Assembly: GCA_937922085.1 (NCBI GenBank)
Contig: CAKZVD010000059.1
Location: forward strand, 1 to 64,000
Source of the DNA: an uncultured Tenacibaculum sp.
GTDB taxonomy: Bacteria > Bacteroidota > Bacteroidia > Flavobacteriales > Flavobacteriaceae
Reading direction: 5' to 3'
Length of the DNA stretch: 64,000 bases
A program made the translations under genes and the position numbers. The stretch's first letter is position 1. Each line of letters opens with the position of its first letter. Positions 31,672 to 58,931 of the stretch are shown here, in pieces. The notes below the pieces were generated by a model, which saw only the letters and a list, made by a program, of their open reading frames with translations, was not told the DNA's origin and ran no database searches.

Positions 31672-31712
31672 AGTAACCAACTTAAAACTTTTAAAATCTA
31701 AACTTGCTATCA

Positions 31713-32399
31713 ATGAGAAAAATGCTATCAACCATTTTTTTATTGTTGACTACTTCTGTTCTATATAGTCAAGATAAAAATATTGACAACCTATTCTACT
31801 CTTCTTTTGATAATATTATTGGGCAAAGAAACACTAAACTTAGTTATGGCTTCGTTTTTAAAGAAAAGTATCGAAAAAGATTCAAAGACAATCATAATTT
31901 TTTTTTAAACGATCAGTTTAAGAAAGGAAATATTCATTATAGAGGGGAACTTTTTTATAATATTGGATTAAAATATGATTTAGTTGAAGATCTTTTAATT
32001 CTTAAAATATCTAATAACGAACAACTTATTTCTGTTATACCTGAAAAAAAGAATGTTCTATATTTTCTATTAGATAATTTAAAATTTGTACATACTAAAA
32101 AACTTGGATTTTTAGAAGAAGTAATTGAGACCAAGAATTTTTCTATCTTTAAAAAGCATAAAAAAAATGTAAAAGAAAACAAAGATGAAAAATTTATCTA
32201 TCACACTTTTAAACAAATAACTCAACATTTTATTTTATATAAAAAGAATTACTATTCCATAGAATCTAAAAGAGATTTTATAAGAATATTTCCTAATCAA
32301 AAAAAAGCTATCAATAAATTTTTTAAATCAAATAAATTTTTATTAAAAAATGATTACAAAAATTTTATTGTAAAACTTATTAATCAACTTCAGTCTTAA
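31713..32399 (+). CDS. Exported protein of duplicated operon, copy A
   Basis: 228 aa from the ATG at 31713; the track's TTG start nine bases earlier is not needed. Signal peptide LSTIFLLLTTSVLYSQ. The mature protein is basic and Lys/Phe-rich, with the core LSYGFVFKEKYRKRFKDNHNFF, KYDLVEDLLILKISN, and an end KNFIVKLINQLQS. It is clearly paralogous to the first gene of copy B (NTKLSYGTAYKERYIKK, KYDLVNDIAILKIS). I do not recognise the family. It lies 21 nt before the STN-TonB receptor gene, so it is the first gene of the operon. A periplasmic accessory role is only a guess. Confidence 0.6.
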   Translation: MRKMLSTIFLLLTTSVLYSQDKNIDNLFYSSFDNIIGQRNTKLSYGFVFKEKYRKRFKDNHNFFLNDQFKKGNIHYRGELFYNIGLKYDLVEDLLILKISNNEQLISVIPEKKNVLYFLLDNLKFVHTKKLGFLEEVIETKNFSIFKKHKKNVKENKDEKFIYHTFKQITQHFILYKKNYYSIESKRDFIRIFPNQKKAINKFFKSNKFLLKNDYKNFIVKLINQLQS

Positions 32400-32420
32400 T
32401 TTTAAATAATAAAATCAGTT

Positions 32421-35144
32421 ATGAAAAAAAATTTACTAATTTTATTAATGTTCTTCTTTTTATCCGTTTCGTCTCAAGAATTAATTTCTTTAGAAATTAA
32501 AAATTTAAACAAAAAAGAAATTATAAAATTAATAGAAAAAAAAACAGATTATCATTTCTTTTTTCTAGATGATTGGTTTGATCGAGAAACAATTACTACT
32601 TCATTTGATAATCTTAAAATTGAACAAGTTTTAAACACTGTTTTTAAAGGTAGTACTATAAATTTTTTTCTTTTAAACAAAAAAAATATTGTTTTAACAA
32701 ATAATAATCTAATAAAGAAGAGTGTTTATGAAGATGATATAAAAGAAAATAATTTTACTAATAATGACATTCCTGTTCTAATTGACTCTAAAATAAACTC
32801 TAAAAATCAAATAAAGAAAATAGGTAAAGAAAAAATATTAAAACAAGAGGAGTATACTTTATCAGGTATTATTATAAATTATAAAACGGGTAAACCTATT
32901 GAAGGTGTTACCATTTTTGAGCGAAAAAAGAATATTTACACAACTACGAACAATAAAGGGTTTTACAAAATTAAGCTTCCGTATGGTAAAAACACTATAG
33001 AAACATCTTTCGTTGGCTTTGATAATCAAACAGAAAGCTTAATAATTTATAACAACGGTAAATTAAATCTTTCTATAAATGAAAAATCTGAGCAATTAGA
33101 TGAAGTTGTTATTGATGCTAATAGGAATAGAAATGTAAAACAAACAATCGCTGGTATTACACAAATTAAAGCTCAAGAAATAAAAAGGATACCTCTAGTT
33201 TTAGGGGAAAGAGATATTTTAAAAGTCGCAATAACCTTACCTAGTATAAAGTCAACAGGAGAAGGATCTGAAGGAGTAAATGTTAGAGGAGGAAAAGTTG
33301 ATCAAAATTTATTCCTGCTAGATAATGGTGTTATATATAACCCTTCTCACTTCTTAGGCTTATTCTCTGCCATAAACCCATTCACGACCAATGACTTAAA
33401 AATATACACAGGAAATATCCCAGCAGAATATGGAGGAAGGCTTTCTTCTGTTTTTGATATAAAAACTAATGAACCAAATACAACAAAGTTTACAGGAGAA
33501 GCGTCAATAGGGCCTGTTACGGGTAATATTAATGTAGATATTCCTATTGTAAAAGAAAAATCTGGCCTTATTTTAGGAGTAAGAAGTACTTATTCTGATT
33601 GGATTTTAGGACTTCTTGATAATCAAGAAATTGAAAACAGCAGTGTCTCTTTTTTTGATGTTATTGCTAAATACAAACACTCTTTTAACGAAAAAAACAA
33701 TTTAAAAGTTACTGGTTATTATAGTCAAGATCAATATCAAATTGCCTCTGATACTATAAATAAATATGGAAATTCTTTAGTTTCTTTTAATTGGCAACAC
33801 AAATTCAATGAAAAAAACAGAGGTAATTTAATCCTTTCAAACAGTGGTTATACTTTTGATATTGACTATGAAAGTGAGACTACTAATAAAGGTTTTAACT
33901 TGAAATATCGAATTAATGAAACAGATTTAAAGCTTAATATGAAATATGATCATTCAGCTACTCATAGTTTCAATTATGGTTTAGAATCAAAACTATACAA
34001 TATTAACCCTGGCTCAATAATCCCTAATGGAGATGCATCTACTGTCGTTCCTCTTACAATTCCAAAAGAAAAAGCACTTGAAAATAGTTTATTTGTTTCT
34101 GATGAAATAAAAGTAAATAAAAAACTTAATTTTAATGTTGGTTTGCGATTTAATCAATACCTAGCTTTAGGTCCTTCTGAGCAAAGAGTTTATGAAAACG
34201 GTGTCCCTAAAAATGAAACTTCTTTAGTTAATACAGTTCAATATGAAAATAATGATATATTAAAAACATATCATGGTTTAAGTTATAGACTATCTGGAAG
34301 ATATTCTTTTGATAAAAGTTTTTCATTAAAAGCTAGTTATAATAAATCTTTTCAATACATACATCGACTAAACAACAATACTACTGCAACTCCTATTGAT
34401 ACTTGGAGACTTTCTGATTCAAATATAAAGCCACAAGAAGGAACTCAAGTTTCATTTGGTCTTTTTAAAAACATAGATGGAAACAATTATGAAATAAGCT
34501 TAGAAAGCTATTACAAAAGGTATGAAAATTTACTAGATTATAAAGTTGGAGCAAATTTATTATTAAATGAGAATATTGAAACTGAAATATTACAAGGGAA
34601 AGGAAAGTCTTATGGTGTAGAGTTTTTAGTTAAAAAAAACAAAGGGAAATTAAACGGTTGGCTAGGCTATAGTTATTCAAGATCTCTTATTCAGTTAAAT
34701 AGTAAATTCACTGAAGAAACAGTAAATAATGGAGTGTTTTTCCCTACAAATTACGATAAACCTCATGATTTTAGCGCTGTTTTAAATTATAAATTTACAA
34801 AAAGATATAGTTTTTCTACTAATTTCACTTATCAAACAGGAAGACCAATTACCTATCCAACAGGAAAATACACCTTTCAAGGTACTGAATTCTTAACTTA
34901 TAGTAATCGAAATCAATTTAGAATACCAGATTATTATAGGCTAGATATTGGTATTAATATTGAAGGAAATCATAAAATAAAGAAATTTGCACATAGTTTC
35001 TGGAATATCTCTATTTATAATGTTCTAGGTAGAAATAATCCTTATTCAGTATATTTTGAAACTGTAAATGGAAATGTAAAAGCTTTTAAAAGTTCAATTT
35101 TCTCTATCCCTATCCCTACAATAACTTATAACTTTAAATTCTAA
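32421..35144 (+). CDS. STN-containing TonB-dependent receptor, copy A
   Basis: 907 aa outer-membrane receptor. Signal peptide (KKNLLILLMFFFLSVSSQ). Residues ~22-95 are a secretin/TonB short N-terminal (STN) domain: LEIKNLNKKEIIKLIEKKTDYHFFF, DNLKIEQVLNTVFKG, IVLTNNN. Residues ~150-225 are a CarboxypepD_reg-like fold (TLSGIIINYKTGKPIEGVTI) ending QLDEVVIDA. Then the plug (ITLPSIKSTGEGSEGVNVRGGKVDQNLFLLDN, GNIPAEYGGRLSSVFD) and barrel, ending in F. STN domains usually signal to a FecR-type anti-sigma factor, but none is encoded here. Receptor plus DUF4249 lipoprotein is a known Bacteroidetes pairing; substrate unknown. Confidence 0.9.
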   Translation: MKKNLLILLMFFFLSVSSQELISLEIKNLNKKEIIKLIEKKTDYHFFFLDDWFDRETITTSFDNLKIEQVLNTVFKGSTINFFLLNKKNIVLTNNNLIKKSVYEDDIKENNFTNNDIPVLIDSKINSKNQIKKIGKEKILKQEEYTLSGIIINYKTGKPIEGVTIFERKKNIYTTTNNKGFYKIKLPYGKNTIETSFVGFDNQTESLIIYNNGKLNLSINEKSEQLDEVVIDANRNRNVKQTIAGITQIKAQEIKRIPLVLGERDILKVAITLPSIKSTGEGSEGVNVRGGKVDQNLFLLDNGVIYNPSHFLGLFSAINPFTTNDLKIYTGNIPAEYGGRLSSVFDIKTNEPNTTKFTGEASIGPVTGNINVDIPIVKEKSGLILGVRSTYSDWILGLLDNQEIENSSVSFFDVIAKYKHSFNEKNNLKVTGYYSQDQYQIASDTINKYGNSLVSFNWQHKFNEKNRGNLILSNSGYTFDIDYESETTNKGFNLKYRINETDLKLNMKYDHSATHSFNYGLESKLYNINPGSIIPNGDASTVVPLTIPKEKALENSLFVSDEIKVNKKLNFNVGLRFNQYLALGPSEQRVYENGVPKNETSLVNTVQYENNDILKTYHGLSYRLSGRYSFDKSFSLKASYNKSFQYIHRLNNNTTATPIDTWRLSDSNIKPQEGTQVSFGLFKNIDGNNYEISLESYYKRYENLLDYKVGANLLLNENIETEILQGKGKSYGVEFLVKKNKGKLNGWLGYSYSRSLIQLNSKFTEETVNNGVFFPTNYDKPHDFSAVLNYKFTKRYSFSTNFTYQTGRPITYPTGKYTFQGTEFLTYSNRNQFRIPDYYRLDIGINIEGNHKIKKFAHSFWNISIYNVLGRNNPYSVYFETVNGNVKAFKSSIFSIPIPTITYNFKF

Positions 35145-35147
35145 ATT

Positions 35148-36356
35148 ATGAAAATGAAAAAAAATAATTTATGGTCTTATTTTATAATATTAATACTAAT
35201 AAGCTGTGTTGAATCTTTTGAAATTGAAAATATTGTTTTTGAAGGAAATTTAGTAGTTGAGGCAACTTTAACAAATGAATTTAAAAATCATACTATTAAA
35301 TTATCAAGAACTATAGCTATTGATTCAACAGGTATAAGTCCAGAAAAAAACGCACTTGTGTCTATTATAGATGAATTAAATACAACTTACAATTTTCAAG
35401 AAAATGAGAACGGTATTTATACATCTATTACTCAATTCTCTGCAGAATCTAATAAAAAGTATACATTAAATATTGAGACAAATAATGGAAAAAAATACAC
35501 TTCTACTCCAGAAAAATTACCATTAACTTCGGAAATAGAAAGTATTTTTATAGATGTAGAAGAAAACGATTTAGGAGAACCTGAAGCTATCATAAAAACA
35601 AACAGTAATAGTTCTAATATTGAAGGTCAATATTATCGTTATGAATATGATGAAACTTTTAAAGTTAAAGCTCCAGTATGGCGAACAAAAAAAATCAATA
35701 TTATTTCTGATACCCCCCCATATCAATTTGAAATAATTTCTAAACCCCCAGAAGAAGGAATTGGTTTTTGTTATGGAACTAAAAGCTCAAAAAATATTAT
35801 TTTAACGGAAACTAAAACATTATCCCAAGATAAAGTTTTAGAATTTCCTGTAAGATATATTCTTTTAGAGAATTACCTTATAGGTATACGATATAGTATA
35901 TTTTTAAAACAATATGTTTTAAATAAAAACACCTATGATTATTACCTTTTATTAAATAAGTTTTCAGACCCTGATGACATATTTTCACAAACACAAGTTG
36001 GAAATATCCCTAGTAATATTTCCTCTAATTTAGGAGAAAAAGTAATTGGCTTTTTTGAAGTTTCTACAATTTCAAAAAAAAGAATTTTCTTTAACCGAAG
36101 TGATATTACATCTGTAGCAACATACACTAACTATAATAGTGTTAATGAATGTACTAATTCTTTAATTCAACCAGAAATAACTAACTCTCGTGGAGACTCT
36201 CCTTTATTAACACGTTTAAAAACTCATGTTTATCAAGGAACACCAAATGCTCCAGTACCTCCCCCTCCTAATATGCCCTACATATTAATTTCAAAAGTAT
36301 GTGGTGAATGTACTCATATTGGACCGCCTCTTAAACCAGATTTTTGGATTGATTAA
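35148..36356 (+). CDS. DUF4249 lipoprotein, copy A
   Basis: 402 aa. Lipoprotein signal YFIILILISCVESFE with Cys at ~20. The family body is shown by EGNLVVEATLTNEFKNHTIKLSRT, ENEQ-type linker YNFQENENGIYTS, KKYTLNIETNNGKKYTSTPEKLPL, and the Y-rich YYRYEYDETFKVKAP. The conserved C-terminal GECTHIG...PDFWID is shared with the other two copies. DUF4249 proteins sit beside STN-TonB receptors in Bacteroidetes and are probably surface lipoproteins that cap or feed the receptor (inference). It starts 3 nt after the receptor gene. Confidence 0.88.
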   Translation: MKMKKNNLWSYFIILILISCVESFEIENIVFEGNLVVEATLTNEFKNHTIKLSRTIAIDSTGISPEKNALVSIIDELNTTYNFQENENGIYTSITQFSAESNKKYTLNIETNNGKKYTSTPEKLPLTSEIESIFIDVEENDLGEPEAIIKTNSNSSNIEGQYYRYEYDETFKVKAPVWRTKKINIISDTPPYQFEIISKPPEEGIGFCYGTKSSKNIILTETKTLSQDKVLEFPVRYILLENYLIGIRYSIFLKQYVLNKNTYDYYLLLNKFSDPDDIFSQTQVGNIPSNISSNLGEKVIGFFEVSTISKKRIFFNRSDITSVATYTNYNSVNECTNSLIQPEITNSRGDSPLLTRLKTHVYQGTPNAPVPPPPNMPYILISKVCGECTHIGPPLKPDFWID

Positions 36357-36365
36357 AAAAATTAA

Positions 36366-38051
36366 ATGATGATTAAAAAATTAATATTTACATTCGCTCT
36401 AATTACATACTTAATAGGTATTTCTCAATCAAATTCAGATTTTTTATCTAAAAATTTTGATAAACTACCTCAAGAAAAAATTCATTTACACTACAACAAT
36501 GATTTTTTACTTACAGGTGAAACATTGTATTATAAAATATATTGCTTAAATAACAATAAGACCAATAATACATTTAGTAAATATAGTAAAGTAGCATATA
36601 TAGAACTTATTAATTCAAAAAATGAAAAAGTAATTATACATAAAGTTAATCTAATTAATGGATCTGGATATGGAGATATTTTTATTGATACAAAATTAAA
36701 GTCCGGAACATATAAATTAGTTTCATACACACAATGGATGAGGAACCAACAATCTTTTTTTGAAAAAGATATTGTAATTATTAATCCATTCATTAAAAAA
36801 ATAGAAAGTAGCAATAAACCAACTACTAAAATTAACAAACTTAAAATATCACCTAATAGTTTAAAAGAACAAAACTCTATACTCTCTAATCCTCTAAAAA
36901 AAGTATATTCGACAAGAGAAAAAGTTTCCTTAGCTTTTTTTAATGATTCAACGAAATATCAAGGAATCTTTTCAATATCTGTAAAAAAGAAAGATGATAC
37001 TAATTTAGATTTAAACACACTTCCTTCTGTTTCTTTAAGTAAAACAAATAATTTTTATCTACCAGAATTAAGAGGAACCTTAATACAAGGAAAGATAAAC
37101 TCTAAAACACCAAATAAAAACATTTCAAATATAAAACTAGCTTTATCTATAAAAAATAGTGCTTTTTTAACTCAAACTGCAACTACTAATAATCTTGGCG
37201 AATTCTATTTTAATGTACCTAATTTAAACACAAATAAAGTTTATATTCAAATTTTAGATGAACAAAAGTCTAATTTTGAAATTACTTTGAAAGAAAATAA
37301 AGGAATAGAAAAAAACTTTAAAAACTTTAAAAACTTTACTCTTAACAAAGAACTTACAGAGGTAATTAAATATAGAAGCAATTATTTACAAGTAGAAAAC
37401 GCATATTATACTGTTAAAAAAGATTCTATTGTAAATTCTGTAGTAGAAAAAATGCTATTAAATGAAAAAATAAAAACATATAAATTAGATGATTACAAAA
37501 GATTTAAATCTATGGAAGAAACTTTTATAGAAATAATAGATGTTGCCAGAATTTTTAAACGAAATGAAGAAGCCATGATTAAAGTTATTGATGAACAAGC
37601 TTCTGAAACATTAAGTTATTTACCATCTTTACTTATAGTAGATGGGCATATTTTATACAATCATACTCCTTTTATAGATTTTGACACTCGAAATATTAAT
37701 AAAATAAATATTATTAAAAATAAATATTATTATGGTAATGCAATTTATCAAGGAGTTGTAATTATAGAAACATTTAAGGGAGATTATTTCCCTACTACTA
37801 AAGATTTAAAAGAATTTAATGTAACACAAGTACAACCACAAAAAAAATATTTCTTTCAGAGACATGACATAAGTAATAAAAGGATTCCTGATTTTAGAAC
37901 ACAATTATATTGGCACCCTAATTTAAATACTATTCAAAAAGAAATTACTTTTTACACTTCTGATGTAACTGGTGATTTTGAAATTGACTTTCAAGCATTC
38001 TCTAAAAAAGGGAAATTAATTCATGTAAAAAGGACATTTTCTGTTAAATAA
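36366..38051 (+). CDS. MG2-like exported protein, copy A
   Basis: 561 aa with a signal peptide (KKLIFTFALITYLIGISQS). The N-terminal part has the macroglobulin MG2-like opening common in Bacteroidetes surface proteins: EKIHLHYNNDFLLTGETLYYKIYCLN, then SGTYKLVSYTQWMRN. A second beta domain begins LIQGKINSKT. The C-terminal region holds LDDYKRFKSMEETFIEII, SLLIVDGHIL, and an end VTGDFEIDFQAFSKKGKLIHVKRTFSV. Many relatives are longer and carry a TonB-plug-like C-terminus, and this one may keep part of it. Role unknown; it is coupled to the receptor operon. A hairpin follows its stop. Confidence 0.75.
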   Translation: MMIKKLIFTFALITYLIGISQSNSDFLSKNFDKLPQEKIHLHYNNDFLLTGETLYYKIYCLNNNKTNNTFSKYSKVAYIELINSKNEKVIIHKVNLINGSGYGDIFIDTKLKSGTYKLVSYTQWMRNQQSFFEKDIVIINPFIKKIESSNKPTTKINKLKISPNSLKEQNSILSNPLKKVYSTREKVSLAFFNDSTKYQGIFSISVKKKDDTNLDLNTLPSVSLSKTNNFYLPELRGTLIQGKINSKTPNKNISNIKLALSIKNSAFLTQTATTNNLGEFYFNVPNLNTNKVYIQILDEQKSNFEITLKENKGIEKNFKNFKNFTLNKELTEVIKYRSNYLQVENAYYTVKKDSIVNSVVEKMLLNEKIKTYKLDDYKRFKSMEETFIEIIDVARIFKRNEEAMIKVIDEQASETLSYLPSLLIVDGHILYNHTPFIDFDTRNINKINIIKNKYYYGNAIYQGVVIIETFKGDYFPTTKDLKEFNVTQVQPQKKYFFQRHDISNKRIPDFRTQLYWHPNLNTIQKEITFYTSDVTGDFEIDFQAFSKKGKLIHVKRTFSVK

Positions 38052-38062
38052 TTTGAATACTT

Positions 38063-38100
38063 AAATTGATGTTTTTCTAAGTTTAGTAAAACATCAATTT
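38063..38100 (+). terminator. Terminator after copy A
   Basis: AAATTGATGTTTT and AAAACATCAATTT form a 13-bp stem with a 12-nt loop. Ends operon copy A. Confidence 0.75.
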
Positions 38101-38182
38101 GTATTTTAAGATTATACTTATTTCCTTTAAAAAGAAAAAGCTTTTTACCTAGTATAAGAATTGATAATATTATTTTTAGAGA

Positions 38183-39034
38183 TTAACTGTTAGTTATTAA
38201 TTCTGTTTGATAAATTCTATTCCCTACGATCATTTTCGTAATCAAGTTGTTGAATATTGTCGCCTTGCTCTGTGATCGATTTATTCTAAAACAGAATTAG
38301 TTAAAATACCTATTAAGATTATCATTACTAACTCAAGAATAGGTTGTTCATATCCAAGATTTAACTTGGTGTATTATTGTGTTGGAGCGCTTTGAATTCC
38401 CCCCTTATTACTTTCTATTTGAGTTATGTTAAAAACTTTAGCTTCTAATCTGATGTGATTTACAAAGATGTACTGTAGTGATTGAGTTAAAAAACTCTCT
38501 ATTTTCATAGCGTACATTCTTTTTACTTTTCCGTCTTTACTAAGCTGAACGTCTGTTACGGCTTTCCTTTTCTTGTTATCATAACTTCTTACCTCCTTAC
38601 CTGCACCTTTACTCCCAAGAACAAATTAATCAACATGTATCTCTCTATCCATTTGGTTATTTCCACTGGAAAACATCACTTCTCTTAATTTGAGCATAAC
38701 TAATCTAGTTGTTTTTTCGGTTACCCCCATAACGAACTCCCATATAACTTACTCATAAACTCTTTGTAGATGTCGCCATCTCAAAACAAATAAAAAATGC
38801 TTTTCAAACACCTAATTTAATCTTATGAAAAACCTTTCTTCTGTGGCTGATTCTGTGTGTCTACAAATATTACATTGTATATAAAAATCAGCATGAGATT
38901 GACAAGCTATATGATTACATCTAGTGTATTTAAACACTGTTCTTATTTTATTTGAGCTAATATCCCTTACAATCTTCATCTATCTAGAACTGATCAGAGA
39001 ACTCTAGAAGATTTCGCCTCTTGAAAATATCCAT
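38183..39034 (-). mobile_element. Decayed IS1595-type (ISXO2-like) transposase gene
   Basis: No open frame survives and the ORF track shows none, but the minus strand decodes piecewise as a full-length transposase of about 284 codons. From the ATG at 39034: MDIFKRRNLLEFSDQF; a zinc-finger part RCNHIACQ...CNICRHTESATEERFF; the catalytic-core part EIHVD-stop-FVLGSKGAGKE followed by RSYDNKKRKAVTDVQLSKDGKVKRMYAMKIE and SLQYIFVNHI; and the C-terminal HQVKSWI, NRYFN, FCFRINRSQSKATIFNNLI. Several stops and frame changes break it. The family match is from recalled ISXO2/IS1595 patterns (VDE...G motif). Terminal inverted repeats and a target duplication were not found. It lies exactly between the two operon copies. 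Confidence 0.82.
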
Positions 39035-39073
39035 ATTTTCATATCTTTATTAATGATTTAAGATACGTATTTA

Positions 39074-39099
39074 AATATTGACCTGTATAGGTTAATATT
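39074..39099. promoter_or_regulatory. Imperfect inverted repeat upstream of copy B
   Basis: AATATTGACCT, GTAT, then AGGTTAATATT, with one mismatch between the 11-bp arms. It lies about 113 nt before the first gene of copy B. No equivalent was seen before copy A. A possible operator. Confidence 0.4.
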
Positions 39100-39211
39100 A
39101 TTTTATCTTTTTATAGTCAAAAAACTAAAAATCAAAGTTTTTTTATTTTCTCTTTTAAATAATTCTTACTTTGCTTATAATATTCCCAATCAACCAAATT
39201 TAAATAGAAAA

Positions 39212-39901
39212 ATGAAAAAGCTACTACCTCTCTTTTTTATCTTAATTTTATACAACTATATTTTCTCTCAAAAAGATAATACTAACAAACTTTTTTATTC
39301 TCTTTTTGATACTTCTATAAGTAATGTAAATACCAAACTTAGTTATGGTACTGCTTATAAAGAAAGGTATATAAAAAAAACTCAAAAAAACCATAACTTT
39401 TTTAGAACAAGTAAATTTAAAAAAGGAAGTATCAATTATAGAAATGAATATTTTTATGATGTTGCTATAAAATATGATTTAGTAAATGATATTGCCATTT
39501 TGAAAATTTCAAACTTAGATCAACATATCTCTATAGTTCCAGAAAAAAACCTTATTAAAAGTTTTCAAATAGATGAAATTTCTTTTGTAAACACTAATAA
39601 ATATGGTTTTTTAGAAGAAATATTAGTTCAAAAAGAGTTTTCAATTTTAAAAAAACATCAAAAAACTAGTAAAGAAAACATCGATGATAATTATGTTTAT
39701 CATACTTTCAAAAAGAAAAAAGATCAATTTGTACTTTTCTACAAAAGTAATTACTACCCTATAAATTCTAAAAGTGACTTTAAAAAGATATTTCCAGAAA
39801 AGAAAAAAATAATATCAAAAATTTTTAGTAAGAATAAATCTTTGTTAAAAAATGATTTCAAAAATTTTGTATTAAAACTCATTAATGGTATTCAAGCATA
39901 A
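39212..39901 (+). CDS. Exported protein of duplicated operon, copy B
   Basis: 229 aa with signal peptide LLPLFFILILYNYIFSQ. It is the paralogue of the first gene in copy A: TKLSYGTAYKERYIKKTQKNHNFF, IKYDLVNDIAILKISN, GFLEEILVQKEFSILKKHQK, and the end KNFVLKLINGIQ. Family unrecognised. It ends 5 nt before the receptor gene. The two copies are similar throughout but with many substitutions, consistent with divergence after duplication. Confidence 0.6.
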   Translation: MKKLLPLFFILILYNYIFSQKDNTNKLFYSLFDTSISNVNTKLSYGTAYKERYIKKTQKNHNFFRTSKFKKGSINYRNEYFYDVAIKYDLVNDIAILKISNLDQHISIVPEKNLIKSFQIDEISFVNTNKYGFLEEILVQKEFSILKKHQKTSKENIDDNYVYHTFKKKKDQFVLFYKSNYYPINSKSDFKKIFPEKKKIISKIFSKNKSLLKNDFKNFVLKLINGIQA

Positions 39902-39906
39902 TACAA

Positions 39907-42645
39907 ATGAAAAGAACAACCAAAAATAAATTATTTACTATATTAATTACTTTAATGATCATACCTCTATTTTCTCAAAATGAGGATAAAGAAATAACTC
40001 TTGAAATTAATAATTTAAATAAAAAAGAAATTATAAATTTAATAGAAAAAAAAACTAATTATCATTTCTTTTTTCTTGATGAATGGCTTGATCAAAAGCG
40101 CATCACTACATCTTTTAAAAAAGTTAAAACTGAAAGAATACTAGAAGCCATTTTTAGTGATAGTAATATTAATTATTTTATTCTAAGTGATACAGAAATT
40201 ATTTTAACTAATGGAAGTTTAATACAAAGAAACACTAATAGAAAAATAGCTAATGAAGAATACACGGATGCTCCTATTTTTGTGGATTCACAATCGAATT
40301 TTACAAACGGTATTATAAAAATTGGAAAGGAACAAAAGGTTAAACAAAAATTTTATAATTTATTTGGAATCATCAAAAACGGAAACACCGGTGAACCTAT
40401 TGAAGGTGTAACTATTTTTGAAAAAAAGAAAAATGTTTACGCTGTTACAAATAATAAAGGGATTTACAAGTTAAAGCTTCCTTACGGAGAAAGTGATTTA
40501 GAAACTACTTTTGTAGGCTTTGAAAAATTAACAAAAAAAATTATTATTTATAATAATGGCCGTTTAAACTTTTTTATAAATGAAAAATCAGAAAAGCTAG
40601 ATGAAATTGTTATTGATGCTAATAATAGTAGAAATATAAGACAGACTATAGCTGGTATTAATCAAATTAAAGTACAAGAAATAAAAACAATTCCTACAAT
40701 TTTAGGAGAAAGAGATATTTTAAAAGTAGCAACTACCTTACCATCAATTAAATCTGCAGGCGAAGGTTCTGAAGGAGTAAATGTAAGAGGCGGTAAAGTA
40801 GATCAAAATTTATTTTTACTTGATAATGGTGTCATCTACAATCCAACTCATTTTTTAGGATTATTTTCAGCTGTTAATCCGTTTACTACAAATAATTTAA
40901 AAATATACACTGGTAATATTCCTTCAGAATTTGGAGGGAGATTGTCTTCTGTTTTTGATATTAGTACCAATAACCCAAACACAAAGAAATTTTCTGGAGA
41001 AGCTTCTATAGGTCCAGTTACCGGTAATATTAGTGTTGATATTCCTATTATTAAAGAAAAATCTGGACTTATACTAGGAGCTAGAAGTACCTATTCTGAC
41101 TGGATGTTAGACATTATAAATGAGGAGAAACTGAATAATAGTAGTGTATCTTTTTTTGATTTCATTGCTAAATATCGACATACTTTTAATGATAAAAATT
41201 CATTAAAAATAACGGGATATTATAGTGAAGATTCTTATCAAATTTCTTCAGATACAATTAATAAATACGGAAATAGAATGGTGTCATTAAATTGGAAACA
41301 CCAGTTTAATGATAAAAATAGCGCCAATATTATTCTATCTAACAGTAATTATACTTTTGATATAGATTATGAAAATAATGATACTAATAACGGATTTAAT
41401 CTCAAATACCAGATAAATGAAACCGATTTGAAATTAAAAATGTTATACGATTATTCTGATAAACATAAATTCAATTACGGATTAGAATCAAAATTGTATA
41501 ATATTAATCCTGGAGCAATACTTCCTAATAATGACGCCTCTAGTTTTACTCCTTTAACTATAGAAAAAGAAAAAGCGCTTGAAAGTAGTTTGTTTGTTTC
41601 TGACGAAATAACTTTAAATAAAAAACTAAATATAAATTTAGGCTTACGATTTAATCAATACCTAGGTTTAGGTTCTTCTTCAGAAAGAATTTACCAAACA
41701 AATTCTATAAAAGATGAAACAACTCTACTAAATACTATTGAATATGGTAACAATGAAATATTTAAAACATACCATGGTTTAAGTTACCGATTATCTGGTA
41801 GATATTCATTTGATCAAAATTTATCATTAAAAGCTAGTTATAATAAATCTTTTCAATACATACATCGATTAAACAATAATACAACTGCTACTCCAATAGA
41901 TACTTGGAGACTTTCAGATTCAAATATAAAACCTCAAGAAGGAACACAACTATCACTTGGACTTTTCAAAAATATTGATGGTAATAAGTATGAACTGAGT
42001 TTGGAAAGCTATTATAAAAAATATAAAAATTTATTAGATTATAAAGTTGGAGCAAACTTATTGTTAAATGAAAACATTGAAACAGAAGTTATTCAAGGTA
42101 ACGGAAAATCTTACGGAATAGAATTTCTTCTCAAGAAAAAGAAAGGTCGTTTAAATGGCTGGATGGGATATAGCTATTCTAGATCTCTTATTCAGTTAAA
42201 TAGTAAATTTGATGAAGAAAGAGTTAATAATGGTCTTTTCTTTCCTACTAACTATGACATTCCTCACGATTTTAATGCCGTTTTTAATTATAAGTTTACC
42301 GAAAGATATAGTCTATCTGCAAATTTCACATACCAAACAGGAAAGCCAATTACATACCCTACAGGAAAATATATTATTGATGATATTGAAGTTTTAACTT
42401 ATAGTAGCCGAAATCAATTTAGAATACCAGATTACTACAGAATGGATATCGGGTTAAATATTGAAGGAAATCATAAAATTAAAAAGTTTGCACATAGTTT
42501 TTGGAATATTTCAATTTATAACGTTCTAGGAAGAAATAATCCTTATTCTGTTTTCTTTGAAAGTATAAATGGAAATGTAAAAAGCTTTAAAAGCTCTATT
42601 TTTTCTGTTCCCATTCCTACAATAACTTATAATTTCAAATTTTAA
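39907..42645 (+). CDS. STN-containing TonB-dependent receptor, copy B
   Basis: 912 aa. STN domain at residues ~30-105 (LEINNLNKKEIINLIEKKTNYHFFF; VKTERILEAIFSDSN). CarboxypepD_reg-like domain from ~155 (NLFGIIKNGNTGEPIEGVTIFE), then DEIVIDANNSR. Plug (LPSIKSAGEGSEGVNVRGGKVDQNLFLLDNG; GNIPSEFGGRLSSVFD) and barrel ending PTITYNFKF, identical to the end of copy A. Differences concentrate in the STN, linker and some barrel loops, as expected if substrate or signalling differs. No FecI/FecR pair lies next to it. Confidence 0.9.
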   Translation: MKRTTKNKLFTILITLMIIPLFSQNEDKEITLEINNLNKKEIINLIEKKTNYHFFFLDEWLDQKRITTSFKKVKTERILEAIFSDSNINYFILSDTEIILTNGSLIQRNTNRKIANEEYTDAPIFVDSQSNFTNGIIKIGKEQKVKQKFYNLFGIIKNGNTGEPIEGVTIFEKKKNVYAVTNNKGIYKLKLPYGESDLETTFVGFEKLTKKIIIYNNGRLNFFINEKSEKLDEIVIDANNSRNIRQTIAGINQIKVQEIKTIPTILGERDILKVATTLPSIKSAGEGSEGVNVRGGKVDQNLFLLDNGVIYNPTHFLGLFSAVNPFTTNNLKIYTGNIPSEFGGRLSSVFDISTNNPNTKKFSGEASIGPVTGNISVDIPIIKEKSGLILGARSTYSDWMLDIINEEKLNNSSVSFFDFIAKYRHTFNDKNSLKITGYYSEDSYQISSDTINKYGNRMVSLNWKHQFNDKNSANIILSNSNYTFDIDYENNDTNNGFNLKYQINETDLKLKMLYDYSDKHKFNYGLESKLYNINPGAILPNNDASSFTPLTIEKEKALESSLFVSDEITLNKKLNINLGLRFNQYLGLGSSSERIYQTNSIKDETTLLNTIEYGNNEIFKTYHGLSYRLSGRYSFDQNLSLKASYNKSFQYIHRLNNNTTATPIDTWRLSDSNIKPQEGTQLSLGLFKNIDGNKYELSLESYYKKYKNLLDYKVGANLLLNENIETEVIQGNGKSYGIEFLLKKKKGRLNGWMGYSYSRSLIQLNSKFDEERVNNGLFFPTNYDIPHDFNAVFNYKFTERYSLSANFTYQTGKPITYPTGKYIIDDIEVLTYSSRNQFRIPDYYRMDIGLNIEGNHKIKKFAHSFWNISIYNVLGRNNPYSVFFESINGNVKSFKSSIFSVPIPTITYNFKF

Positions 42646-42650
42646 TCGTT

Positions 42651-43865
42651 ATGAAGAAGTACATCCTATTTTTCTTTTTATTCTTACTTATACTCATCAC
42701 CAAGAGTTGTATAGAGCCTTTTGAAATTGATACTATTGCTTTTAAAGAAAACATTGTAGTTAAAGCTATACTAACAGATGAAGTAAAAAATCATTCTGTA
42801 AAACTATTTCAAACTATTCCTATCGATTCTACAAAAACTATTCCTGTAAAAAATGCTAGAATATCAATTATTGATGATGCAGGAAATACTTATAATTTTC
42901 AAGAAACTGAAGATGGTATTTATACCTCTACTTTTCAGTTTGCAGCACAACCTCTAAAATCATATACTTTAAATATTGAAACTATAGAAGGAATAAGATA
43001 TAAATCAACCCCAGAAAAACTACCATTAAAATCAGAAATAGACGATCTTAATTTTAGTATAGAACTTAATAATGCTGATATTCCTGAACTTGTTATTAAG
43101 GCTAATAGCATTCTTTCAAATAATGAAGGTCAATTTTACAGGTATGAATACGATGAAACTTTTAAAATTAAAGCAAGATATTGGAGCCCTCGAAAAATTA
43201 TAATGGTATCGGATAATCCTTTTAGATTTGAAACAGTTTTAAAAGATCCAAATATTTATGGTAAAGGGTTTTGTTATGGAAATCAAAAATCTAAAACAAT
43301 TTTAATTACTGAAACAAAATCGTTATCAGAAGATCGGGTTTCAAATTTTCCTATTCGATTTATTCCTTTAGATAGTTATATTATAGGAGTAAGATATAGC
43401 CTACTTTTAAAACAATATGTAATCAATAAGAAAACATATGATTATTATGAACTTTTACATAAGTTTTCTGATTCTAATAACATATTTTCTCAAGTACAAT
43501 TAGGAAACATACCTAGTAATATTAAACTAGAAACAAACATCATAGAACATAAAATAGATGGTTTTTTTGAAGTTTCTTCTGTTACTACAAAAAGGTTTTT
43601 TATCAACCGTGAAGATATAACTGAAACCAGTTTTACTAATTATGTTAAACCTTCTGTTTGTAATAATGATCAACCAAATCCATTTATTGTTAATGAATTT
43701 GGAGAGTCACCTCTCTTAGAACATCTAGAGAACGGATACATTTATTTTAACCCTGTAAATATTAATCCTCCTCCTTCAACACACCCATATTTATTAATAG
43801 GGAAGGAATGTGGAGATTGTTCTAGACATGGAAATCCTATTGCTCCAGATTTCTGGATCGATTAA
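42651..43865 (+). CDS. DUF4249 lipoprotein, copy B
   Basis: 404 aa. Lipoprotein signal LFLLILITKSCIEPFE. Body: ENIVVKAILTDEVKNHSVKLFQTIPIDSTKTIPVKNARISI, YRYEYDETFKIKARYWSPRKI, and C-terminal ECGDCSRHGNPIAPDFWID with a CxxC. It resembles the third, broken copy at 45622 more than copy A, sharing for example SVKLFQTIPIDSTKTIPVK. It starts 5 nt after the receptor and ends 14 nt before the MG2-like gene. Confidence 0.88.
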   Translation: MKKYILFFFLFLLILITKSCIEPFEIDTIAFKENIVVKAILTDEVKNHSVKLFQTIPIDSTKTIPVKNARISIIDDAGNTYNFQETEDGIYTSTFQFAAQPLKSYTLNIETIEGIRYKSTPEKLPLKSEIDDLNFSIELNNADIPELVIKANSILSNNEGQFYRYEYDETFKIKARYWSPRKIIMVSDNPFRFETVLKDPNIYGKGFCYGNQKSKTILITETKSLSEDRVSNFPIRFIPLDSYIIGVRYSLLLKQYVINKKTYDYYELLHKFSDSNNIFSQVQLGNIPSNIKLETNIIEHKIDGFFEVSSVTTKRFFINREDITETSFTNYVKPSVCNNDQPNPFIVNEFGESPLLEHLENGYIYFNPVNINPPPSTHPYLLIGKECGDCSRHGNPIAPDFWID

Positions 43866-43879
43866 AACACTATCAATCA

Positions 43880-45541
43880 ATGAAAAAAATAATATTCATC
43901 ATAATAACATTCCTCTTTACAAGGAGCTTTTCTCAATTAAACTATGCTTTAATTTCTGAAAATATTGAAAGACTTCCTAAAGAACAAATACATCTACATT
44001 ACAATAATGAATTTTTGCTTACTGGAGAAACACTATACTATAAAGCATACTGCCTAGATGATACTGATAAATTTTCATCTTATAGTAAAATCGCTTATCT
44101 TGAATTAAAGTCTTCTAATAATAAAACTATCATCAAACAAAAGATAAATTTAAAAAACGGTGGTGGTTCTGGTGATTTTTTCATTAATACAACTATAAAA
44201 ACTGGGGTTTATAAATTATTATGCTATACACAATGGATGAAAAACTATAAAAGTTACTTTGAAAAAAATATTTTTATACTAAATCCTTCTTCTTATAAAT
44301 TAACCAATAAAACTACTTCTAAAAAAGTATCTCCAATTTTACCTCCTCTAAACAATAGTAACTTAGTTTTAACTAAATCTACCTATAAGAAAAGAGAAAA
44401 AGTTACTTTAAATCTTAAAAAAATTAGTTCTAAATATCAAGGTGATTATTCTATTTCTATTAAACGAAAAAACAACTTTCATCTTCCTTTAAATAAAAGC
44501 ATTTCAAATTTTAAATTAAAAAATAAAACTCCTAAAAACATTTTCTACTTACCAGAACTTAGAGGTGCTTTAATTCATGGAAAAATAAACGCTAGAGATT
44601 CTTCTAATATTTCTGGTTTAAGAATAGCTTTATCTATCAATAGTAATCACTTACCTTTAATAGCTACAACAAATAATTCTGGTGAATTCTATTTTAATAT
44701 AACAAATTTAAATGCCAATAAAATTTATATTCAAATTCTCGAATCTAATAGCTCTAATTACGAAATAAAAATAATAGAAAATGAAAATCTTAAACAAAAA
44801 GACTTCAACTACCCTACTATTAAGCTTAATCAGAAAATAATAAATGATATTGAAAATAGAATTCTATACTCACAAATAGAAAATGCGTATTACTCAGTTA
44901 AAAAAGACACTTTACTAACATCCCAAATTAAAGATTTCTTATTAGAAAATAAAAAGACTACCTATAAATTAGATGATTATAAAAGGTTTAAAACTCTAAA
45001 AGAAACTTTAATTGAAATAATAGAAAAAATAAATATCTCTAAAAAGAATAATCAATATACAATTTCAATACAAACAACAAATGCTATTGAAACAAGTAAT
45101 ATTAGTAACATACCTTCATTACTTATTGTAGACGGACACATTATAAACAATCTTAAAAATTTTATTGACTTTGATTCTAGAAAAATTAACACTATTTCAA
45201 TTATTAATGATAAGTATTTTTACGGGTATTCTATGTACAAAGGAATTATTTATATAGAAACTTTTAAAAAGAATTACTTTCCTAATTATAAAGAAATAAA
45301 GGAGTTTAAAGTAACAGAAATGCAACCTCAAAAAAAATATTTTTTTCAAAGACATGATATAGAGAATAAAAGAATTCCTGATTTTAGATCTTTTTTATAT
45401 TGGAATCCTAATATAAATACAACTCAAAAAGAAATTACATTCTATACTTCAAATGTAATTGGTGATTTCGAAATTGATTTACAAGGGTATTCTAAAGAAG
45501 GAAAGTTAATTCATTTAAAACAAACATTTTCTGTTCAATAA
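43880..45541 (+). CDS. MG2-like exported protein, copy B
   Basis: 553 aa, signal peptide KKIIFIIITFLFTRSFSQ. Same domain order as copy A: EQIHLHYNNEFLLTGETLYYKAYCLD, GVYKLLCYTQWMKN, LIHGKINARDSSNISGLRIALSI, LDDYKRFKTLKETLIEII, SLLIVDGHII, and a conserved end FYTSNVIGDFEIDLQGYSKEGKLIHLKQTFSV. Exported by the general pathway; an outer-membrane or surface location is likely from context. No enzyme motif seen. Confidence 0.75.
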   Translation: MKKIIFIIITFLFTRSFSQLNYALISENIERLPKEQIHLHYNNEFLLTGETLYYKAYCLDDTDKFSSYSKIAYLELKSSNNKTIIKQKINLKNGGGSGDFFINTTIKTGVYKLLCYTQWMKNYKSYFEKNIFILNPSSYKLTNKTTSKKVSPILPPLNNSNLVLTKSTYKKREKVTLNLKKISSKYQGDYSISIKRKNNFHLPLNKSISNFKLKNKTPKNIFYLPELRGALIHGKINARDSSNISGLRIALSINSNHLPLIATTNNSGEFYFNITNLNANKIYIQILESNSSNYEIKIIENENLKQKDFNYPTIKLNQKIINDIENRILYSQIENAYYSVKKDTLLTSQIKDFLLENKKTTYKLDDYKRFKTLKETLIEIIEKINISKKNNQYTISIQTTNAIETSNISNIPSLLIVDGHIINNLKNFIDFDSRKINTISIINDKYFYGYSMYKGIIYIETFKKNYFPNYKEIKEFKVTEMQPQKKYFFQRHDIENKRIPDFRSFLYWNPNINTTQKEITFYTSNVIGDFEIDLQGYSKEGKLIHLKQTFSVQ

Positions 45542-45621
45542 ATTAAACAACATCTCTAACAAACAGACAATTATAATACTAAAAGATAAAAACATCTATC
45601 ATATTATAATTTTAAAACATT

Positions 45622-46820
45622 ATGAAAAAACATATAATTCTTTTCATTCTATGCATAATTATGTTAATTAAAGGTTGTATTGAACCTTTTGAGATTGTTA
45701 ATACTACATTTACTAAAAATATAGTTGTTAAAGCAATATTAACGAATGAAATAAAAAAGCATTCAGTAAAATTATTTCAAACCATTCCTATAGATTCTAC
45801 AAAAACTATTCCTGTGAAAAATGCCATTGTAAGGATTATTGATGACACAGGAATTACTTATAATTTTCAAGAAACTGAAGATGGTATTTATACTTCTACT
45901 TCTCCATTTGCTGCGCAACCTGTAAAATCCTATATTTTAAAAATTAAAGCTATAGAAGGTATCGAGTATAGTTCAACACCAGAACAACTCCCCTCAACTT
46001 CTGAAATAAAAAATCTTAGTTATAAGATAGAAATTAATGATTCAAATATTTCAGAACTAGTTATTAAAGCAAATAGTAAACTATCAAATAATGAAGGTCA
46101 ATATTATAGATATGAATATGACGAAACCTATAAAATTAAAATACCTTATTGGACACCGCGAAAAATTATAATTGTGTCTGCAGTCCCCCTTATGAGTTCA
46201 AATTAGTTCAAAAAGATCCAAACGAACATGGTATAGGCTTTTGCTATGGAAATCAAAAATCTAAAAAAGTTCTTATTACCGAAACAAAATCATTATCTGA
46301 AGATCGTGTTCGTGGTTTTCCTGTTAGAGCTATTCCTTTAGATAGTTATGTTATTGGTATGCGGTATAGTCTTCTTTTAAAACAATATGTTATTAATAAA
46401 AAAACGTATGATTATTACGAGTTGTTGGGTAAATTTTCTGACTCCAACAATATATTTTCTCAAGTTCAACTAGGTAATATACCGAGTAATATTAAATCAG
46501 AAATAAACCCTATAAAAAATAAAGTAGATGGTTTTTTTGAAGTTTCTTCAGTAACTACTAAAAGATTTTTTATTAATCGTGAAGATATAACTACCCCTCA
46601 TTATACCAATTATGTAACTCGTGCTTTTTGTAATGATAGACCAATTCCTGTTCCTGTAGATCAATATGGGAACTCACCTCTTCTAAAACTATTAGAAGAT
46701 GGTTATATTTTCTTTGATATTCCTCCTTCTAGTTCCTTTCCATATATATTAATAGGAAAAGAATGTGGAGATTGTTCTAGGTTTGGGAAACCTATAGCTC
46801 CTGATTTTTGGGTTGATTAA
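45622..46820 (+). pseudogene. Third DUF4249 lipoprotein copy, frameshifted in a C5 run
   Basis: The first part (45622-46206) encodes the lipoprotein signal (FILCIIMLIKGCIEPFE) and the DUF4249 body up to ..YWTPRKIIIVSAVP. It then goes out of frame into LMSSN and a stop. The second part (from 46149 in the -1 frame) continues PYEFKLVQKDPNEHGIGFCYG to the conserved APDFWVD end. Adding one base in the C run at 46185-46189 restores a full ~400-aa protein. It is most like copy B. It lies 80 nt after the MG2-like gene without receptor or MG2 copies of its own, so it looks like a duplicate of only the lipoprotein gene. Confidence 0.85.
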
Positions 46821-58329: not shown

Positions 58330-58542
58330 ATGATTGAAACAATTTTAAGTTTAGGAAAAATATTAAGTAAAACTGAGAAAAACCGAATTAAAGGAAAACA
58401 ATTACCAGCTCCTACAGAATACAATTATTGTTGTGTTGGTAGTTCGTATGAATGGCTCGAAATGTATCCACATTTAAGCTATTACACTTGTTTTAACATT
58501 GTATGTACTGATAATTCACATTCAGATAACAATGCTCATTAA
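58330..58542 (+). CDS. Bacteriocin-like precursor peptide with variant (GK) leader end
   Basis: 70 aa. The leader IETILSLGKILSKTEKNRIKGK matches the flavobacterial double-glycine leader of the next gene (NSILTLGKTLNKIEQQTIQGG) position by position, but the usual GG at the cleavage point is GK here. The core is Cys-containing (YNYCCVGSSYEWLEMY..YYTCFNIVC, four Cys) and ends in a polar tail with three His. It may be a secreted or modified natural-product peptide. No transporter, modification enzyme or immunity gene lies beside it. Confidence 0.72.
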   Translation: MIETILSLGKILSKTEKNRIKGKQLPAPTEYNYCCVGSSYEWLEMYPHLSYYTCFNIVCTDNSHSDNNAH

Positions 58543-58674
58543 TTAAATATCTGTTAGGAAAAATATTTTAATTTATAAATAAGTAATACTCTTTTCGCGA
58601 AAGAAAGACATACACCTTGAATGTCTTAAAATGATCAAGGGTTTAACTAAATTATTTAACACTATTATTAAATC

Positions 58675-58857
58675 ATGAAAAATTCAATTTTAACTTTAGG
58701 AAAAACTCTAAATAAAATAGAGCAACAAACAATTCAAGGAGGAAGAGGAACATCTAGAAGAAAATATTGTAAAACTCTAAGAAAATTACTTTTAGGAGGT
58801 GGATTTCAAGGAGATTATAACGATGGGCACGATGCTTATAATAAGCATTGTAATTAA
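58675..58857 (+). CDS. Double-glycine-leader bacteriocin-like peptide
   Basis: 60 aa. Leader KNSILTLGKTLNKIEQQTIQGG with a canonical GG cut site for a C39-peptidase ABC exporter, then a basic core GRGTSRRKYCKTLRKLLLGGGFQGDYNDGHDAYNKHCN of 37-38 residues with two Cys. The second gene of a pair; the two leaders are homologous while the cores are unrelated in sequence. A bidirectional hairpin follows. Exporter probably encoded elsewhere (inference). Confidence 0.75.
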   Translation: MKNSILTLGKTLNKIEQQTIQGGRGTSRRKYCKTLRKLLLGGGFQGDYNDGHDAYNKHCN

Positions 58858-58894
58858 TGTAAATTATCTCTAATAAAAAAAAGAAATACTTAAC

Positions 58895-58928
58895 AAATTA
58901 GCTCAATATGATCATATTGAGCTAATTT
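58895..58928. terminator. Perfect 34-nt palindrome, bidirectional terminator
   Basis: AAATTAGCTCAATATGA is followed directly by its exact reverse complement. It separates the peptide gene (+) from the convergent EamA gene (-), whose stop lies 4 nt away. Confidence 0.93.
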
Positions 58929-58931
58929 ATT

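Follow-up and report, generated by a model that had tools for sequence, protein, structure and literature searches.

Secreted peptides with a GG-type leader are abundant in Bacteroidota, and the functions of most of them are not established. Those of the PCAT (C39-ABC) systems, such as the bacteroidetocins, the lahA-type clusters and TIGR01847, share with the peptides described here a short leader ending in GG, hydrophobic residues at positions -4 and -12, arrays in which one leader precedes diverse cores, and a C39-ABC exporter accompanied by HlyD (PMC10885120; PMC10352776). For the leader end itself, the C39 motifs given in the literature are GG, GA and GS (PMC10885120). The stretch of DNA analysed in this study (64,000 nucleotides, hereafter the window) corresponds to contig C59 of a 3.67-Mb Tenacibaculum MAG (G000, 67.8% complete), and carries two small genes, P0001 and P0002, the products of which depart from the PCAT systems in several respects. 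Position -7 is Gln here (Lys in P0001) rather than a hydrophobic residue, the leader of P0001 ends in GK, the two genes lie away from any exporter, and neither peptide matched Pfam, NCBIfam or PDB chain sequences.

P0001 is a 70-aa ORF (58330..58542, forward strand) and P0002 a 60-aa ORF (58675..58857, forward strand). As originally predicted, their leaders can be aligned over 23 residues without a gap: that of P0001, MIETILSLGKILSKTEKNRIKGK (58330..58398, forward strand), has Lys at both -1 and -7, and that of P0002, MKNSILTLGKTLNKIEQQTIQGG (58675..58743, forward strand), has Gln at -7 and ends in GG. Both possess Ile at -4 and Leu at -12, and of the two only P0002 shows one of the GG, GA or GS ends at -2/-1. 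The leader profile scored P0002 at 44.1 bits, P0002 itself being part of that profile. Because the profile built without P0001 still recovered this peptide (18.3 bits, E 1e-4 for 1000 ORFs), the likeness between the leaders exceeds chance. The similarity stops at the leader, and the cores are unrelated. The core of P0001 follows the pattern PT-x-Y-x-[FY]-CC-x(6-7)-W-x3-Y-...-C-x(4-5)-C in the core alignment; it does contain the four Cys noticed earlier, but to call it His-rich was an overstatement, as there are three His. The core of P0002 is indeed basic with two Cys, and conforms to [RK]x[YF]C[KA]T..L..GG[GY]QGD....N..C.

In an independent collection, all relatives of the P0001 core came from Tenacibaculum, including T. 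skagerrakense, T. discolor and a sister MAG with the same synteny, and the host is accordingly placed in this genus of the Flavobacteriaceae. Homologues of P0002 were found in the genomes G184, G200, G116, G192 and G114. A search of plasmid DNA returned nothing beyond short chance matches. Judged from these comparisons, neither peptide is spurious: both are conserved and form part of a large GG-leader repertoire, and their assignment to the GG-leader (PCAT-type) precursors is supported.

Within 1 kb on either side, the two genes are accompanied by those for a MatE transporter, a DUF2461 protein, an EamA transporter and CutC; as previously noted, no C39 exporter or modifying enzyme occurs over this distance. 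A palindrome at 58892..58931 (no strand assigned), flanked by A/T runs, separates P0002 from the convergent EamA gene and is likely a bidirectional terminator. In another part of the window (31704-46820), a four-gene unit encoding a small exported protein, a TonB-dependent receptor, a DUF4249 lipoprotein and a further exported protein is present in near-tandem repeats, the final copy of the DUF4249 gene bearing an apparent frameshift at ~46200.

Other copies of the leader and C39 exporters, on which the original prediction hinged, were both found when sought genome-wide. There were 37 matches to P0002 at E<=10 and 56 to the leader profile at E<=0.1, together with three C39 peptidase domains, two of them within full-length peptide-export ABC transporters (C18 and C17). 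Since C39 exporters lie only elsewhere in the genome, processing in trans, which had been proposed from the window alone, appears plausible. P0001 and P0002 can be regarded as dispersed members of a large Tenacibaculum repertoire of secreted GG-leader peptides, for which cleavage and export most likely depend on a C39 peptidase-ABC exporter and its HlyD adaptor acting in trans from another locus. An array on C74 comprises ~17 sibling peptides around an HlyD-type adaptor, and ends in a C-terminal piece of an ABC exporter. The site of this main array (L009 10927-16625; also L146 and L147) is conserved in several Tenacibaculum species, with riboflavin synthase/pdxA genes on one side, a PCAT exporter on the other and the HlyD adaptor inside, and is a hot spot of fast-changing precursor genes.

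The suggestion that the pair might give rise to modified natural products found no support. Lanthipeptide and radical SAM RiPP precursors are linked to a gene for a modifying enzyme, and no such gene accompanies P0001 or P0002; one LanC-like gene was detected on C38, and radical SAM genes occur elsewhere in the genome. The LanB N-terminal model had no match in the genome, but it had none in any control either. As a separate observation, a leader peptide ending in GR (ISGRGPMISC...) is encoded directly 3' of a radical SAM/SPASM-like gene on C21 (L029 8790-10257), and is followed by a second, apparently frameshifted leader copy; this is a candidate modified-peptide locus.

The leader end of P0001 was compared with 219 profile matches in the fetched Tenacibaculum loci, one of which was a false positive. 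Position -1 was occupied by G in 190 leaders and by S in 18, the remaining 10 of 218 having K (3), Q (3), N (2), R (1) or E (1). Position -7 was Q in 200 of the 219 matches and K in P0001 alone; going by these sequences, the clade departs from the LahT rule at this position, Gln being the rule. GK is retained in the orthologue of P0001 in the sister species G184 (90% identical), and the homologue in G200 (55% identical) has a leader ending in GG, on which ground the GK of P0001 is probably derived, yet maintained. The four Cys, the Trp and the PT..Y motif are kept in all members of the P0001 core family. Comparable cases are (i) the core family GGCDIAPPGCPC, in which the leader ends in GQ in three species and in GG in the genome of the window, and (ii) a second GK peptide, in G027, the relatives of which end in GG and GS. 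As far as these families reveal, non-glycine leader ends do recur on intact peptides. G027 itself encodes two GK-ending leader peptides (L084 13027-13248 and 13364-13564), and the one with GG- and GS-ending relatives offers a natural comparison for C39 specificity. The recurrent GK, GQ, GN, GR and GE ends pose a testable question about the strictness of C39 cleavage in the clade.

The original prediction held that the GK end would alter or block processing by a C39 exporter. Lys at -1 is unusual and may slow cleavage, but a block is doubtful. A more radical version of this idea is that P0001 is a decaying pseudogene, in which GK and Lys at -7 have destroyed C39 recognition and the peptide is no longer exported. 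Its leader score is indeed in the lowest tier of the genus survey (rank 212 of 219), and dN/dS between G000 and G184 was 0.44 for P0001 against 0.12 for P0002 and 0.04-0.13 for five neighbouring genes, the value for P0001 resting on 12 nucleotide differences only. On the other hand, the sister species has an intact ORF that keeps the positions of the four Cys, W and YxxxC as well as GK, and other species also have intact cores behind leaders that end in neither G nor S. Since GK is kept along with the four Cys in G184 and such ends are recurrent across the genus, the case for simple decay as the origin of GK is weakened, and we regard the pseudogene explanation as unlikely, albeit one with some evidence on its side.

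The possibility that P0001 and P0002 act jointly as a two-peptide bacteriocin deserves the same scrutiny. Both peptides are present in G184 at the same position as in the window (L148), P0002 differing there by one substitution and a two-residue deletion. The next-closest homologues of both peptides are found in a third species, G200, where they occupy a different locus, next to a YchF GTPase gene; their order is reversed there, and the ~0.4 kb that separates them contains another small ORF. G114 encodes more distant relatives of both within ~2 kb. Nevertheless, G116 and G192 possess P0002-type peptides without a close P0001 partner. By these gene positions, the linkage is real but not obligatory; the notion of a pair holds for the co-occurrence in G184 and G200, and not for an obligate two-peptide unit. 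Adjacent leader peptides are found in class IIb two-peptide bacteriocins as well, but the GxxxG motif is missing from P0001 and seen only in P0002 (GGFQG), no immunity-like gene was recognised beside the two genes, and their upstream regions differ. Joint action as a bacteriocin consequently seems to us quite unlikely, more so than decay of P0001. In G114, the P0002-type gene is placed between two paralogous genes (L139 215-2815), the products of which resemble, by eye, secreted retropepsin-type aspartyl proteases.

What the original prediction missed is a conserved structured RNA element between the two genes, at 58582..58646 on the forward strand upstream of P0002 (cmsearch 73.4 bits, E 4.3e-12), which is the only significant covariance-model match in the window. 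It was spotted by comparing the upstream regions of P0002 homologues, where this block is conserved better than the peptides. The architecture comprises a weakly supported 5' hairpin and an H-type pseudoknot, all strands of which are on the forward strand. In stem S1, AGACAT (58606..58611) pairs with ATGTCT (58621..58626), the consensus being AGACAY/RTGTCT. In stem S2, which forms the pseudoknot, CCTTGA (58615..58620) inside the S1 loop pairs with TCAAGG (58635..58640).

Among 96 copies from outside Tenacibaculum, 96.6% of cells pair and 10 of the 12 pairs change on both sides. S1 is paired in 98.3% of cells, the search model having included this stem; S2 is paired in 94.9%, with two-sided changes at all six pairs, and was absent from both the search model and the selection rule, so that its pairing was not imposed. 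Two-sided changes in these copies numbered 148 against 38.1 in shuffles, and the covariation score was 0.437 against 0.184 shuffled and at most 0.133 in slid versions. The 41 aligned Tenacibaculum copies had 99.0% of cells paired, S1 pairing being partly imposed by a scan that required a GAC...TGTC core, and their covariation score was 0.180 against 0.100 shuffled (0 of 500 as high), every slid version scoring far lower. Pairs were counted on the alignments A6, from which copies with loop 3 one base longer were left out, and A7. Relatedness among the sequences inflates the shuffle-based tests, a weakness of which the slid controls and strand-biased wobble are free. The ratio of G.U to A.C was 33:2 in S1 and 40:7 in S2, and a bias of this kind, as read from the aligned copies, is that expected of an RNA from the coding strand and not of a DNA site. 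The pseudoknot thus displays the conserved structure with compensatory changes that marks cis-regulatory RNAs.

Support is weaker for the 5' hairpin, around UCGCG, in which 79.6% of cells were paired across the family, with a score of 0.330 against 0.230, and the ratio of G.U to A.C in its middle four pairs was 62:16. We rejected the full 6-bp version (P0), which was unsupported in Tenacibaculum and of which the family supports the middle four pairs only. A third hairpin in the interval between the pseudoknot and ATG was also discarded as a general part of the element (6.0 against 5.3 bp shuffled in Tenacibaculum, 5.2 against 5.3 in the family). The single-sequence fold of the window copy was not unusually stable (z -1.33), as calculated by a program that cannot score pseudoknots.

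A scan for the pattern TCGC-GAC...TGTC over all fetched Tenacibaculum loci yielded 77 distinct copies; an intact GG-leader ORF follows 75 of them (74 identified by rule and one by eye), mostly with 63-81 nt from TCGC to ATG. T. skagerrakense and T. discolor are among the species with numerous copies. Across the whole genome of the window's organism, 12 of 12 matches are directly upstream of leader ORFs, as are two weaker ones. The element is carried by a minority of the leaders in this genome (14 of ~50), and a single element may serve many co-transcribed genes of an array. P0001 has no recognisable element upstream, and would probably be expressed separately, from its own start. Some dispersed leader peptides stand singly, each with its own element (L030 on C61, L026 on C89, L025 on C3 and L027 on C1), and such peptides are often near two-component or LytTR-type regulators (C1, C3; L047 in G034).

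When 400 whole Flavobacteriaceae genomes were searched, in one search, with a covariance model containing S1 only, the element was found in 48 genomes and 40 of 237 genera, figures that undercount distant versions since the model was trained on Tenacibaculum. As many as 88 of the 96 copies from other genera precede an intact ORF with a GG, GA or GS leader; random positions drawn from these loci do so in 3.5% of cases. In the copies, the distance from S1 to ATG has a median of 61 nt (5-95%, 58-65). The peptides behind the element span several unrelated leader types. Of the eight remaining copies, about five stand before broken leader ORFs, one before a precursor-like peptide ending in GY and two before other genes. 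The latter two (L211 191-255 and L234 270-311), preceding a 175-aa lipoprotein-like ORF and a membrane protein, may reflect immunity or signalling targets, or chance. We did not find the element in plasmids, phages or viral contigs. From the end of the pseudoknot to AUG, the family average is ~28 nt, and the distance is 34 nt at P0002. This position upstream of related genes is as consistent as would be expected of a cis-regulatory RNA.

The repertoire, the exporter genes, the element, its coding-strand covariation and its fixed position before GG-leader ORFs can all be read directly from the genomes, and on these grounds we consider it quite probable that P0001 and P0002 belong to a dispersed, trans-processed repertoire, and that P0002 lies behind a new 5' cis-regulatory pseudoknot RNA used across Flavobacteriaceae. 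The element would be transcribed within the mRNA, and could tune many unlinked peptide genes in concert, at the level of translation or mRNA stability, according to a common signal that may be a ligand, a protein or a cell state. Such a shared signal acting in trans would let unlinked precursors be made along with their common exporter. The spacer between the pseudoknot and AUG is unstructured and A/U-rich, and flavobacteria do not use Shine-Dalgarno sequences (PMC9723704); together with the constant distance to AUG, these features fit a role in translation initiation or mRNA stability. Translational control appears preferable to other modes of action, because the pseudoknot-AUG spacing is near-constant, a Shine-Dalgarno sequence is lacking and no terminator-like T-run follows the pseudoknot. 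It is attractive to speculate, though only tentatively, that the element is a ligand- or protein-sensing riboregulator representing one new RNA class, by which a single signal governs a large part of secreted-peptide production in Flavobacteriaceae. If this is the case, one RNA regulon joins GG-leader precursors of unrelated classes, whether or not an exporter lies beside them.

Could the same block work as DNA instead? The interleaved repeats might bind a protein in double-stranded DNA, as an operator or as a promoter for an alternative sigma factor. A conserved A-rich stretch and a TCGCGA palindrome do precede S1, the outer positions of the 5' hairpin pair poorly, and no ordinary sigma-A box was seen upstream, the -7 box not being enriched in the 60 nt before the element (5 of 76 against 2.1 expected). 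However, the repeats interleave as A-B-A'-B', an arrangement characteristic of pseudoknots rather than dimer sites, and double-stranded DNA leaves the strand-biased wobble in both stems unexplained. We give a DNA-level function of the whole element a small chance, and note that the 5' box could act as promoter or operator next to what is still a genuine RNA. The same wobble bias, in favouring RNA, also weighs against a recombination or duplication cassette composed of element and leader, in which the structure would serve to shuffle variable cores. Variable cores do contrast with the conserved element and leader, and arrays reach ~20 peptides at one conserved location, as such a cassette would have it. 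Nevertheless, the element accompanies several unrelated leader types in 40 genera and is not merely co-duplicated with one, and the few arrays inspected showed neither an integrase nor a transposase. A cassette is the least credible of the explanations weighed here. A regulatory RNA upstream of the precursor genes remains our preferred reading, under which the element serves as a handle for genome mining that finds precursor genes without adjoining enzymes or exporters, and as evidence that scattered 'orphan' precursors form one regulated set. As a compact pseudoknot in bacteria that do without Shine-Dalgarno sequences, it also offers a mode of control that is directly testable.

By Rfam 15 and the open-access papers searched, the pseudoknot appears to be a previously undescribed RNA element. 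Rfam 15 returned nothing plausible for the region of the window concerned at E<=10, and no family reached the gathering threshold on the window; copies of the element from 20 loci in other genera stayed without a match at E<=1. No description was found in the open-access papers, and its novelty rests on Rfam. Most of the motifs in a 2017 study of 224 RNA motifs are reportedly contained in Rfam. In Flavobacterium psychrophilum, structured 5' transcripts without Rfam matches have been mapped, and the main text of that study does not mention bacteriocin-type targets (PMC9723704).

Among described families, TIGR04149 (GG_sam_targ_CFB), NF047798 (leader_Chryseo) and PF14406 (Bacteroid_pep) are, like the peptides here, GG-leader precursors of Bacteroidota. 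Several peptides following the element in other genera match these models, all below the curated cut-offs, whereas P0001 and P0002 do not match them at all. Flavo-1 RNA (RF01705) is likewise a widespread RNA motif of Flavobacteriaceae, and was not returned by the Rfam scans of the element. The closest counterparts in architecture are the preQ1-I, SAM-II and SAM-V riboswitches, which share with the element a small H-type pseudoknot, an A/U-rich third loop and a location before functionally related genes. None of these was matched in Rfam, and the element differs from them in that its pseudoknot ends about 28-34 nt before AUG and its targets are precursors of secreted peptides, not metabolite genes.
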